Of a stretch of 14,755 nt of DNA, positions 2,444-7,062 are shown one piece after another. The notes under the pieces are model-generated. The model saw only the letters and a program-made list of their open reading frames with translations. It was not told where the DNA came from and searched no databases. The DNA comes from Candidatus Dojkabacteria bacterium. Its GTDB lineage: Bacteria; Patescibacteriota; Dojkabacteria; B142; OLB20. The stretch is taken from the NCBI GenBank assembly GCA_020429485.1, contig JAGQLK010000011.1, forward strand, positions 1 through 14,755, in the 5' to 3' direction. Each line of letters begins with the position of its first letter. Position 1 is the first letter of the stretch. Both the position numbers and the translations under genes were made by a program.

Positions 2444-5400
2444 ATGAAGTTTGACGAATACTATTCACAATTAAATCCGGAACAGAAAAAAGCTGTAGAT
2501 ACTATCGAAGGACCTGTATTAGTTATAGCTGGGCCTGGAACTGGTAAAACTCAGACTATTGCCTTAAGAATTGGAAAAATTCTGCTTGATACCCAAGTCG
2601 ATCCACAGAATATCTTATGCTTAACATTTACTGATACTGCTGTTTCAGCAATGAGAAATAGATTGCTCGAATTGATTGGTAAAGAAGCTTATGCAGTTAG
2701 GATTTATACATTTCATTCATTTTGTAATGAAGTAATACAATCAAATTTAGAGCGATTTGGTCAGCTAGGTGCAAATGCAGAGTCAATCACAGATGTAGAA
2801 AAGCTAGATATATTAAGTGGAATTATTAATGAGTTAGAGTTTGATAGCCCACTTAAACCTTTTGGTAATCCAGAGCTGTATATCAAAGAAATTAGTGGAT
2901 TAATATCTGAACTAAAAAGAGAAAGCGTACCTGTAAAGCATTTAAGAAAATTGACAACTACAGATAGTAAATATTTTCTTGGGATCTCAGACAAAGTTTC
3001 AGAGTTAAAAGCCATTAACTATCGAAAGCTAACAAATGAGCTATTTGCTGAGTTTGTTAACTATCTTGCTGATTATGATTCAGATCATGGCTTCACAAAG
3101 TATATTACCCAATTATTCAAAAATCATTTAGCTGCGGACTTTGACGACGAAAAGTTAGAAAGCAAGGCGAGAACGAGTTTGAGAAAGACTATTATCGAAC
3201 TTTATAAAAAGTATTCTGATCCCGTTAATGGAAGCAGGTTGGAAGAATTAGCAAATATCTATGAATCTTATCAAAACGAATTAGTTTCGAGAAAGGTTTA
3301 CGATTATGAAGATATGATTAGATATGTTGTAGAAGCATTTCAAGAAGATGACGAGCTACTAAAAATCTATCAAGAGAAATATCAATATATACTTGTAGAT
3401 GAGTATCAAGATACAAATAATTCCCAAAACTCCACTCTCAAGCTGCTTGGCGGCTTTTTTGATTCGCCTAATATATTTGTTGTGGGTGATGATGATCAAG
3501 CTATTTACAGATTCCAAGGAGCAAGCTTAGAGAATATAGTATATTTCAATCAACTATATGAAAACGACTTAAATGTAGTGGTACTAAAGAATAACTACAG
3601 AAGTCATCAGCATATACTTGATGCCTCATTCTCATTAATAAATAATAATTCCAATTTGATTAAGGATCATATAGAGGGAGTTGATAAGCAACTTAAATCG
3701 AAGGCCAGTATAGAAGAAGGTAGTATAGAGTTACATTCTTTTACTACAGAATCTGAAGAAAATTTATTTATGGTAGAAGAAATTGCAAGTTTAATAAATT
3801 CAGGAGTGAAACCTGAAGAAATTGCAGTGCTATACCGGGAAAATAAAGATGTAAATGATATCGCAGACAGCTTGGAAAGAAAGGCTATCCCCTTCTCTTT
3901 GGTCCGAGGCCAGAATATTTTCAGAGATAATATTATTCAGCAATTTATAAAGCTGGTTAGGTTTATAGTTAATCCAGTTGAAGATTATGACTTATTCCAT
4001 ATTCTAAATTTTGAATTCTTAAATGTCTCAAGTTTAGATCTGGTTAAGTTGCTCAGATATTGTTACCAAAATAGATTGAATATTGGTGATGTGATTTATG
4101 ATTCTGAGACTTTATCAACATTAGATTTAGATTCATTTGATAGTATTCAGCTTTTTGCGTCAAATATCAAGAATTGGCAAAAGCGATCACACAATGAAGA
4201 TTTTGTGATCCTTTTCAATGACCTAATAAGAGAATGCGGTCTGTTAAACTATATTTTAGCTCATGAAAACAAGTACGAATTATTGTTAAAGTTGACTAGG
4301 CTTTACGATGAAATCAAGCATCTTGATCAAAGTAATGATGACTACTTAGCTAAAGACTTTATAGAGCATCTAGACCTAGTAGATGAATATGGCCTCGAGG
4401 TAAATATCAAGCCGATTAATAAAGATCCTAACTCGATTCAATTAATGACAGCACATAGTGCTAAAGGACTAGAATTTGAATACGTATTTATAGTAAGAGC
4501 TGTAGACAAAAAATGGGGTAATAGAGCTCCAAGAGGGAAGATTAAGTTGCCAATGGGAATTACTACTCTGCTTTCGAGCACAGAAAGTAACGAAGAAGAA
4601 AGAAGACTGTTCTATGTAGCGATGACAAGAGCTAAGAGTAAAATATATATGCTTTATTCTCAGAAGAATGCTAATGATAAAGAACAATCCCCTACTCAAT
4701 TTATTGCAGAGACTGATAGCGTGTATGTTAAAAAGATAGAACATGATCAGGAAGAAGAAAAGCACATGGATGCAATGATGCTGGCATTTAATGCAAAGCC
4801 AGAGCTTGAAATGTCGACTCAGGGAGAAGCCTATCTCAAAGAAATACTCAAAGACTACAAACTAAGTGTTACACATATCTCATCATACAAACGATGTCCT
4901 AGGTGTTTCTTGTATAATACTTTACTAAAAGTTCCTAAACTCAAAAACAAAAATGCCGCTTATGGAACCGCTGTGCATAATGCTTTGAAGAGTCTATTAG
5001 TTACATATAATAAAACAGGTAAGTTACCAGAGTTGAACTTTCTGCTCAAAATTTATGAGGAAAACCTATTTAAGGAGCATCTGAGTGACAAGGATATGCA
5101 GGATGCTTTGCAAAATGGAAGATTAATACTTAGTAACTACTATGATTCAAAAGCAGACAAATTCCCTAAAAACAGCCTTTTAGAAACTAGCTTCAGTAGA
5201 CATAATGTTTATGTTGATGATATTCAAATAATAGGTAATATTGATAGAATTGATATTCTTGAAGGAAAGAAAGTTAGAGTGCTTGATTACAAAACTGGAA
5301 ATCCTGATTACAAATCAGCTGAGTTAAATCAAGAAAAACTTGGAGATTATTATTTGCAGCTTGTGTTTTACAAATTATTAATTGAGGAGTCTCCTCTGCT

Positions 5401-6058: not shown

Positions 6059-6874
6059 TTACATTAGTATTTCATCACCGAGTTTAACACCAAGTTTTTT
6101 ATCTGCAGAGTGTCCCTGAACTACCAATTCAATAAATCTGCTATCCTCTATTCCAGAACTCCCAGTGATCAGTGCAACGCTATTATCTGGTACATCCTTA
6201 AGCCTTTCGTAAAATCTAATTTTGCCAAATCGGGTTGAAATTTCTTCATTAATGTCTGTCAAATCATTTTGCAGGAGCGAAGTTTTGCAGTTGCCAAAAT
6301 TATCAATCCACCAAACAACATTAGGTATGTCCTTGATCTTTTGTACGTCTAGTGATGTAGAAGGGAGATCAATGTTTTGTTCAAGGTAATATGCAACTCT
6401 TGGTGAGAAATCAAAACTTCTAAATTGTGTTTTATCAATATGGTTCTTCAAACCAATATCAATAAGTCCTTTGTTATTAAGAAATTGTGTAACAGTAGGT
6501 ATATCATACAAATTGATACTAGAGACTAAATTTAATTTCTTCACAAGAGATAGTGTATATCCATCAATAGTAGAAATTACCGTGATATTCTTATACTTGA
6601 AAGAAGCAAATGGAGTACCATTTTCCCAATGTTTCCCATTACCGTTTTGGTCAATACTAAAGTTCCAGTTACTACTACGCGGAGCTACATTAACTAGAAT
6701 ATATCCTTCCTCATCTCCAACAGCATCTAACATATCAATTAAATTTCCTGCTGCCTCAATATCATTATTGATACCTACAGTATTTACACAGGAATTAAAT
6801 AGCGCAGAAACTCGTGTTGCCTGTCTTCCTAGAGCGTTTTGATCGTTACAGTCGTTGATAATAGTTATAAACAT
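6059..6874 (-). CDS. Divergent SAM hydrolase/SAM hydroxide adenosyltransferase (DUF62) family protein
   Basis: Known members of this family split S-adenosylmethionine with water into adenosine and methionine. The 271-residue length and two-domain layout fit: an N-terminal domain opening with ITIINDCNDQN (family: T-D-F-G), and a C-terminal beta-barrel from about 187 opening with WIDNFGNCKTSL (189-200; family I-D-x-F-G-N-x-x-T-N) and ending with the typical GHSADKKLGVKLGDEI segment. Two motifs expected to carry catalytic residues differ: the VDPGVG-x-x-R loop reads VAPRSSNW (63-70), and the FHGRD-x-FAP loop reads FRSFDFSPRVA (151-161). The enzyme may therefore have altered chemistry or act only in binding. 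The ATG at 6874 has no SD. The best promoter is 160 bases upstream, ahead of a leader ORF and an attenuator-like structure, so expression is probably controlled by read-through. It converges on the receiver-like gene. Confidence 0.78.
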   Translation of the reverse strand: MFITIINDCNDQNALGRQATRVSALFNSCVNTVGINNDIEAAGNLIDMLDAVGDEEGYILVNVAPRSSNWNFSIDQNGNGKHWENGTPFASFKYKNITVISTIDGYTLSLVKKLNLVSSINLYDIPTVTQFLNNKGLIDIGLKNHIDKTQFRSFDFSPRVAYYLEQNIDLPSTSLDVQKIKDIPNVVWWIDNFGNCKTSLLQNDLTDINEEISTRFGKIRFYERLKDVPDNSVALITGSSGIEDSRFIELVVQGHSADKKLGVKLGDEILM

Positions 6875-6900
6875 AATGATTTTATTTAAAATTTAAGCAC

Positions 6901-6925
6901 AAAAAAACTCCCTTTCGGGAGGTTG
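6901..6925 (-). terminator. Rho-independent terminator just upstream of the DUF62 gene
   Basis: On the minus strand, CTCCC-GAAA-GGGAG (arms at 6917-6921 and 6908-6912, GAAA tetraloop) is followed by seven T (6901-6907). Upstream AAC can pair with GTT after the stem if one C is bulged. It ends 26 bases before the DUF62 ATG, so it would stop transcripts before that gene unless opened. It is the terminator half of the attenuator described separately. Confidence 0.8.
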
Positions 6926-6946
6926 TTAAAAAAATTCAATCAAAAA

Positions 6947-7027
6947 TTAACAACTAACCTCCCATCGGAAGCCTGACATCATCCTTGCCATCATTAAATT
7001 TGTTGTTTGGTATTTGCTTGAATTCAT
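6947..7027 (-). CDS. Met-rich 26-codon leader peptide, leaderless
   Basis: The ORF begins with ATG at 7027-7025 and ends with TAA at 6949-6947. Its second half reads LMMARMMSGFRWEVSC, so five of 26 residues are Met, four of them as two Met-Met pairs at 12-13 and 16-17, followed by one Trp (22). The promoter's -10 ends six bases before the ATG, placing the predicted transcript start on the start codon. The last codons (Trp-Glu-Val-Ser-Cys-stop) are also one arm of the antiterminator. The position between a strong promoter and a terminator, just upstream of a gene of the SAM-hydrolase family, suggests a sensor of Met-tRNA supply. It may instead be a short independent gene ended by its own terminator. 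No homologue is known to me. Confidence 0.55.
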   Translation of the reverse strand: MNSSKYQTTNLMMARMMSGFRWEVSC

Positions 7028-7033
7028 GTAGGC

Positions 7034-7062
7034 ATTATATTAATGCAAACTAGTTTAGTCAA
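7034..7062 (-). promoter_or_regulatory. Near-consensus sigma-70-type promoter for the leader/DUF62 transcript
   Basis: On the minus strand TTGACT (7062-7057) and TATAAT (7039-7034) are separated by exactly 17 bases, giving 11 of 12 consensus positions. It is the best promoter in the window. The expected start site coincides with the leader ORF ATG at 7027. Confidence 0.8.

Follow-up and report, generated by a model that had tools for sequence, protein, structure and literature searches.

Translation of the classical leader peptides of the trp, his, thr, leu and ilv operons starts at a Shine-Dalgarno site, leaderless polycysteine short ORFs were reportedly described in mycobacteria by Canestrari in 2020, and S-box and T-box elements act by binding a ligand or a tRNA and contain no ORF. 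The leader described here shares with the classical attenuators a run of control codons and alternative terminator and antiterminator structures (PMC2965389). According to that 2010 survey, leader peptides were known only from Proteobacteria and Actinobacteria, to which it added a His case in Firmicutes. In the ilvBNC attenuator of Corynebacterium glutamicum, transcription is reported to begin a single nucleotide away from the start codon of the leader (PMC11857589), so that its leader peptide is leaderless, as is predicted here, and this system likewise has control codons and alternative hairpins with a terminator; it senses branched-chain amino acids in Actinobacteria, whereas the present leader carries Met codons, occurs in Patescibacteria and precedes a DUF62-like gene. 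Leaderless short ORFs with Cys runs are described as controlling downstream genes by attenuation in mycobacteria (PMC9031893, PMC4633059). These resemble the present leader, itself predicted to be leaderless, in containing a run of one sulphur amino acid, there Cys and here Met, but are described as having no conserved terminator hairpins (PMC1262725), in contrast to the intrinsic terminator and paired antiterminator kept here. The same survey of Actinobacteria reports no RNA element before methionine operons (PMC1262725). S-box (SAM) riboswitches and Met T-boxes resemble the present case in controlling methionine genes at the RNA level by premature termination, and differ from it in that the leader has no Rfam match. 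Searches of open-licence papers in PubMed Central yielded neither a leader peptide specific for Met nor, for Patescibacteria, any attenuator of the leader-peptide class.

The leader locus of the window

The window, meaning the whole stretch of 14,755 nt that was analysed, comes from an uncultured ultra-small bacterium, and the leader locus lies on its minus strand, 5' of a gene for a DUF62/SAM_HAT-like protein. The features are as follows.

7034..7062, minus strand: sigma-70-type promoter, TTGACT (7062-7057), 17 nt, TATAAT (7039-7034), 11 of 12 consensus bases, from sequence
6947..7027, minus strand: leader ORF of 26 codons and TAA (6949-6947), ATG at 7027, MNSSKYQTTNLMMARMMSGFRWEVSC, predicted to be leaderless
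6977..6994, minus strand: control codons Met12-Met13 and Met16-Met17 (ATGATG GCAAGG ATGATG), from sequence and Met enrichment
6956..6973, minus strand: 1:2 hairpin, GGCTTCC-GATG-GGAGGTT, which could hold segment 2 without a stalled ribosome (p 0.04 against shuffles)
6947..6963, minus strand: segment 2, 5' strand of the putative antiterminator, GGGAGGTTAGTTGTTAA, stop codon included; best duplex within 6963-6951
6917..6929, minus strand: segment 3, TTAACAACCTCCC, computed duplex partner of segment 2 (antiterminator) or, via its own CTCCC, of segment 4 (terminator)
6901..6921, minus strand: intrinsic terminator, CTCCC-GAAA-GGGAG and T7, from sequence; 26 nt separate it from the start of the gene (6874)
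6059..6874, minus strand: the putatively regulated gene, encoding a DUF62/SAM_HAT-like protein of 271 aa
7118..7666, minus strand: upstream gene rdgB/HAM1, outside the switch; its read-through would reach the same terminator

The initial annotation had described this promoter, its spacer and a 26-codon ORF with two Met-Met pairs correctly in every detail, and the terminator was likewise found as it had been described. Promoter-like matches of at least 9 of 12 bases are not enriched in the window (52, against a shuffle mean of 63.6), and that of the leader is one of two 11/12 matches among those listed for the window, with 6 bases between the end of its -10 element and the ATG. The absence of an independent promoter between terminator and gene was borne out, since no minus-strand match of at least 9 of 12 lies in this gap; the 3' neighbour of the gene is convergent. 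Equally, the proposed complementarity between the ORF tail and the 5' arm of the terminator proved stronger than in shuffles, the duplex with segment 3 having an energy of -17.4 kcal/mol (p = 0.006). Segment 2 starts 13 nt past the last Met codon. The 1:2 hairpin (6973-6956), in which segment 2 pairs with the bases that follow the Met codons, was not part of the initial annotation.

When the window RNA is folded as if a ribosome were stalled at the Met run, the antiterminated structure is favoured (-17.7 against -15.0 kcal/mol with the terminator forced), and with the ribosome at the stop codon the terminator forms, in keeping with the suggestion that stalling would free the antiterminator. 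The ribosome-free leader RNA folds at -32 kcal/mol (z -2.06). Its best structure contains the 3:4 terminator together with 1:2, but the centroid contains 2:3, which implies that the free RNA is not clearly off.

A match to the sRNA n00280 at 4572-4665 was discarded, as its 41.8 bits fall short of the gathering threshold (65.2) and it lies inside a UvrD-like gene; the description of n00280 names a helicase gene, and the match probably reflects similarity at the protein level.

Occurrence, methionine specificity and pairing among relatives

SAM_HAT-like genes are rare, being found in 4 of 57 relatives, 4 of 85 genomes of the class and 12 of 379 of the phylum, and in 5/353, 16/285, 5/244 and 15/247 genomes of further samples; these samples overlap partly and each count includes the genome at the centre of its sample. 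Sixteen loci were taken from public records, mostly titled as Patescibacteria groups, with three titled just 'bacterium' and one weak match in an Acidimicrobiia record. Once duplicates and matches lacking the N-terminus had been removed, 55 usable upstream regions of DUF62/SAM_HAT-like genes remained. Those left out comprise loci (labelled here by L-numbers, e.g. L002) where the match does not reach the first 30 residues, L004, L019, L020 and L027-L029 among them, and L083, whose gene is cut at a contig end; the earlier set had consisted of 56 upstreams and 205 controls.

A leader was picked by eye, at first partly using the pairing, at 23 of the 55 loci, and is absent from 32, such that the ORF, Met codons and both pairings sought in relatives are present in the former group and missing from the latter. 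In all 23, the device comprises a short ORF with Met codons, a tail complementary to the 5' arm of a terminator and the terminator itself, while the sequences cannot be aligned (examples are MKIFIVNTNSMMMPRIGGIC in L002, MNVKAQIEMMMAMMTLKNEGTFSYI in L007, MDNKNSMMMMMMRMMNLFHVG in L069, MEKNYEKMMMDMMMFTV in L074 and MLNQQAKMMMSMMMGMMPQSFSLENFV in L088). As judged by eye, the leaders have only Met codons and pairings in common, the peptide and sequence otherwise varying. Three are Met-weak (L023, L025 and L076), with L023 and L025 containing Met-x-Met only, and that of L078 precedes cysK, itself upstream of SAM_HAT at the same locus. Between leader ORF and gene, a hairpin with a T-run is found in 22 of 23 cases, L023 being detected under another hairpin rule. 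Within the last 150 nt, a terminator-like hairpin is present at 20 of 23 loci with the leader and 5 of 32 without it (L009, L024, L034, L072 and L077). Retention of the hairpin with loss of the ORF, named at the outset as a sign against an attenuator, is therefore seen in these five, but otherwise the hairpin tracks the leader. Those at L072, L034 and L009, which have no Met ORF, possibly represent other control or the end of an upstream gene.

A quick tree of 51 rows, 22 with the leader, was used to study its history (L018, L024, L035 and L100 were left out because their open part is shorter than 150 aa). Eleven changes in leader presence are needed, against 16.8 when shuffled, with 1 of 500 shuffles as low; well-supported branches force just 2 changes, and L006, the closest row to the window, is without a leader. 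This fits an old feature that has often been lost, although the tree is not proof. Two irregularities of the genes were observed: the SAM_HAT-like gene at L018:3001-3779 appears to be frame-broken near residue 66-76 with its leader intact, and the frames of L024 and L035 contain 11 and 7 in-frame TGA codons, suggesting that TGA is a sense codon there.

Methionine specificity was assessed with a fixed rule, namely an ORF of 9-50 codons in which a single amino acid takes up 3 or more of 6 codons, followed by a terminator. Controls were the regions upstream of mechanically defined ORFs of 120 or more aa at the same loci, some of which are perhaps not genes. For Met, 17 of the 55 regions upstream of SAM_HAT satisfy the rule, against 1 of 201 controls, and at a threshold of four the counts are 12 of 55 and 0 of 201; the sole control match is the cysK leader of L078, which precedes SAM_HAT. 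None of ten other amino acids comes near Met under the same rule. The counts for Cys, Trp, His, Tyr and Phe are 0, 0, 0, 0 and 5 of the 55, against 1, 0, 0, 0 and 2 of the 201 controls; those for Ile, Lys, Asn, Gln and Asp are 7, 0, 3, 0 and 3, against 6, 1, 0, 0 and 1, Ile being the highest. Asp at four or more (3/55 against 0/201) is perhaps an ATG run read in another frame.

Averaged over the 23 leaders, the promoter score peaks at a distance of 6 nt between the -10 element and the start codon, reaching 6.30 where shuffles average 4.4 (z 6.3, with 41 distances looked at). In 12 of 23 leaders the highest-scoring promoter match falls 6-8 nt away from the start codon; L018 makes a thirteenth by a tie, and in the remaining 10 that match is 11-35 nt away. 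No Shine-Dalgarno pairing below -4 kcal/mol is found at 22 of 23 leader starts, nor at 20 of 23 SAM_HAT starts. By promoter spacing, the leaderless start originally proposed is hence probable for the window and would extend to the other leaders with clear spacing, but is not universal.

Compared with dinucleotide shuffles, the leader tail is more complementary to the 5' arm of the terminator in 18 of 22 leaders at p < 0.05 and in 13 at p < 0.01 (Fisher combined p 9.5 × 10-25), when the arm is taken with the loop and 8 upstream bases under a looser hairpin rule, by which L023 has no hairpin. The misses are L003 (0.065), L021 (0.055), L071 (0.26) and L074 (0.077). An initial test with a short 5' arm had given 11 of 22 at p < 0.05 (Fisher 9.7 × 10-13; L075 without a hairpin). 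In the fairer subset of 17 leaders picked by rule, 13 have pairing at p < 0.05. Segments from the same locus pair with a mean of -17.6 kcal/mol, which weakens to -9.5 if segments from different loci are combined; in 12 of 22, no other partner surpasses the locus's own. Given that the hairpin sequences differ among most loci, this implies that both pairings have changed in concert. A 1:2 hairpin is no general feature, reaching p < 0.05 against shuffles in 4 of 22, the window included. Pairing of the tail with the 3' arm of the terminator (2:4) was rejected as a general explanation, at 2 of 22 with p < 0.05 (combined p 0.0035); the two are L025 (0.002) and L086 (0.012). The tail of L025 copies the 5' arm of its terminator and would consequently pair with the 3' arm.

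The distance between the last Met codon and the start of segment 2 is 4-17 nt, with a median of 11, and falls within 9-13 nt in 16 of 22 leaders; relative to the stop codon, segment 2 is located between 24 nt before and 20 nt after. Its start matches the place where the leading edge of a ribosome would be expected if it stalled with Met in its A site. The stalled state was modelled by folding from a point 9 nt beyond the final Met codon, or from segment 2 where that is closer; the best structure then lacks the terminator in 15 of 22 leaders, and contains it in 17 of 22 once the ribosome is placed at the stop codon. Comparison across relatives thus supports the original reading of a Met-sensing attenuator, and the observation in the window is confirmed as real and beyond chance by Met specificity, pairing and promoter spacing.

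Gene context and the DUF62/SAM_HAT-like protein

A scan blind to the downstream gene was made of 277 genomes with the motif ATGATGATGN3ATGATG; all 30 rows were examined, being filtered for a short frame and a terminator and then inspected. It returned six new leaders (L119, L125, L126, L128, L129 and L131), together with L135, which is the known leader of L026. Among the rows set aside, L132 passed the filter but is by inspection the coding tail of a D-rich protein, read in the wrong frame and with its terminator 110 nt on, and the terminator of L140 goes with a frame of 241 aa. A previous scan, covering 10 genomes (41 rows, made up of 30 and 9 more places, the last two overlapping others) had yielded cases of a short ORF with a terminator before SAM_HAT-like genes and otherwise one ATG-repeat tract.

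The leader of L119 precedes a metA-like gene (homoserine O-succinyl/acetyltransferase-like; PF04204 E 1 × 10-60, below the NCBIfam cut-offs). Those of L126, L129 and L131 precede proteins with faint DUF62-like motifs, for which hmmsearch gave E values of 6 × 10-6 to 1 × 10-4 in a set of only 7, and which belong to no Pfam family. L125 and L128, both in family f78, have Met-run leaders, terminators and significant pairing, and lie near uncharacterised proteins. The six were chosen by motif and terminator with pairing disregarded, and 4 of 6 nevertheless pair at p < 0.05 (combined 1 × 10-6), the misses being L129 (0.088) and the metA leader L119 (0.26). Their distances from the last Met codon to the pairing segment (4, 8, 8, 0, 5 and 17 nt) are mostly shorter than in the main set. 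The contig carrying the metA-like gene (L119/L145; G121 contig 70) also bears a second, different DUF62-like gene (L029).

In the cysK leader of L078, MINQKINQIMMCCMCFC, Met and Cys codons are mixed and the antiterminator pairing extends to 22 bp; the gene product is above the cut-off for cysteine synthase family TIGR01136. A methionyl-tRNA synthetase (MetRS) gene lies directly 3' of SAM_HAT in L002 (2324-3787; 11-nt overlap) and L069 (1-1443; 27-nt gap), and 60 nt from it on the opposite strand in L088, all three being above the cut-off for TIGR00398. The leaders before metA-like and cysK genes, and MetRS 3' of SAM_HAT in two loci, strengthen the link to methionine. For the metA-like, cysK and SAM_HAT-MetRS cases the target gene lies in the metabolism of the sensed amino acid, while for the window gene this follows from fold only.

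The window protein has the DUF62/SAM_HAT family fold in a predicted structure model. The C-terminal domain PF20257 is recognised above the cut-off (E 1.4 × 10-7), whereas that of L026 falls below it. By contrast, the N-terminal domain PF01887 was not listed for three members at E values up to 10, a search in which HMMER filters drop most weak matches, and the window protein found nothing in the PDB at E up to 1. The described members of this group, namely the DUF62 SAM hydrolases, the chlorinase SalL and the fluorinase (PH0463/2wr8, TM/2zbu, MJ1651), thus differ from the present proteins, in which the N-terminal half is unrecognised by PF01887. They differ also at the active site. The water-activating triad of SAM hydrolases is given as D68-R75-H127 (PMC4859513), but there is no His among the columns that are 90% conserved in 43 proteins here, and the FHGRD of MJ1651 aligns with FRSfd. 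When four known hydrolases were aligned by profile to the divergent N-terminal half, no equivalents of Asp68 and Arg75 could be placed. The gene product nonetheless probably yields methionine, by analogy through a reaction converting SAM to methionine and an adenosine product. Of the earlier suggestion of methionine release from SAM, induction at low Met fits the metA, cysK and MetRS context, while the release itself is deduced from the fold and the conserved His of known enzymes is missing. Bacterial-type SAM synthetase (PF02773) was found in 4 of 20 SAM_HAT-bearing genomes tested and the archaeal type (PF01941) in 0 of 20, some of the genomes being incomplete (that of the window is 77%); a synthetase is recognised in so few although their DUF62-like enzyme should need SAM.

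Proposed attenuation and alternative explanations

The locus has a run of control codons, an intrinsic terminator, a mutually exclusive antiterminator and a geometry in which segment 2 would be either free or covered, all features of the attenuator class. The ORF, its Met run, both pairings, their geometry, the promoter spacing and the gene context are established at the level of sequence, and on this basis we infer ribosome stalling, transcription termination and an enzyme reaction. RNA polymerase would start at or beside the leader ATG, and a ribosome would load on the 5'-terminal AUG with no Shine-Dalgarno site. With ample charged Met-tRNA, it would reach the stop codon and cover segment 2, allowing the 3:4 hairpin to form and transcription to end before the SAM_HAT-like gene. 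Were Met-tRNA short, the ribosome would stall in the Met run with its front edge just short of segment 2, which could then pair with segment 3, blocking the terminator and permitting transcription of the gene. One complication is that a lack of methionine should slow down the initiation of leader translation as well. That the device is a methionine-responsive, ribosome-mediated transcription attenuator is, in our judgement, highly likely.

This control codon is also the start codon, and leaderless mRNAs are described as starting on a 5'-terminal AUG (PMC9031893). In-frame AUGs might consequently act as a loading trap, the leader sensing the general translation state or initiator fMet-tRNA with antitermination still as the output. 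Such a trap is improbable. The Met runs lie inside an ORF of one frame with segment 2 a median of 11 nt on, as for elongation stalling; the Cys codons among the Met codons of the cysK leader would be needless for a start-site trap; and three leaders (L026, L126 and L128) retain the Met run despite a GTG start as judged by the best promoter, which for L126 and L128 is a good one 6-7 nt away. Since promoter, ORF and terminator form a complete unit, with 26 nt between the T-run and the gene in the window, the 127-nt transcript might alternatively be a small RNA, or encode a small protein, in its own right and with a terminator of its own, the DUF62-like gene being otherwise transcribed. The recurrence of this unit before one gene type across large divergence with only Met codons constant, the maintenance of mutually exclusive pairing and the lack of a promoter-like site after the terminator in the window make this very unlikely.

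Met T-boxes exist, and a metabolite-binding RNA might control the terminator, the ORF being incidental. Methionine genes of other bacteria are indeed described as being under S-box control (PMC1262725), but no S-box, T-box or other Rfam element matched the leader in a covariance-model search of 4227 families at E up to 1, and the Met codons and pairings are, by eye, all that the leaders share; this explanation is barely credible. A chance arrangement of AT-rich sequence, for which it can be said that promoter-like matches in the window are no commoner than in shuffles, is equally hard to entertain given the Met rule (17/55 against 1/201 control upstreams) and the combined pairing probabilities (9 × 10-25, and 1 × 10-6 in the motif-picked set). 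Hence the device is real, widespread in relatives and very probably a methionine attenuator. Its logic, translation-coupled attenuation, is known; the amino acid (Met) and the lineage (Patescibacteria) are apparently new.

A broader reading, to which we would give slightly less than an even chance, is that Patescibacteria possess an old Met-leader regulon, many of its leaders being leaderless, whose chief target is a methionine-making, unrecognised branch of DUF62 that probably splits SAM scavenged from the host; scavenging is suggested by the scarcity of SAM synthetases noted above. The physiological role of at least some DUF62-type enzymes has been called so far unknown (PMC12120602), and this reading, if true, would give them one. 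Searches that rely on conserved RNA structure would probably overlook the device, which has no conserved RNA sequence. In genomes as small as these, it would be an instance of translation used to sense an amino acid. It also ties to methionine shortage a DUF62-like enzyme whose role is unclear, along with metA-like, cysK and methionyl-tRNA synthetase genes. This tie makes the purpose of DUF62-type enzymes directly testable.
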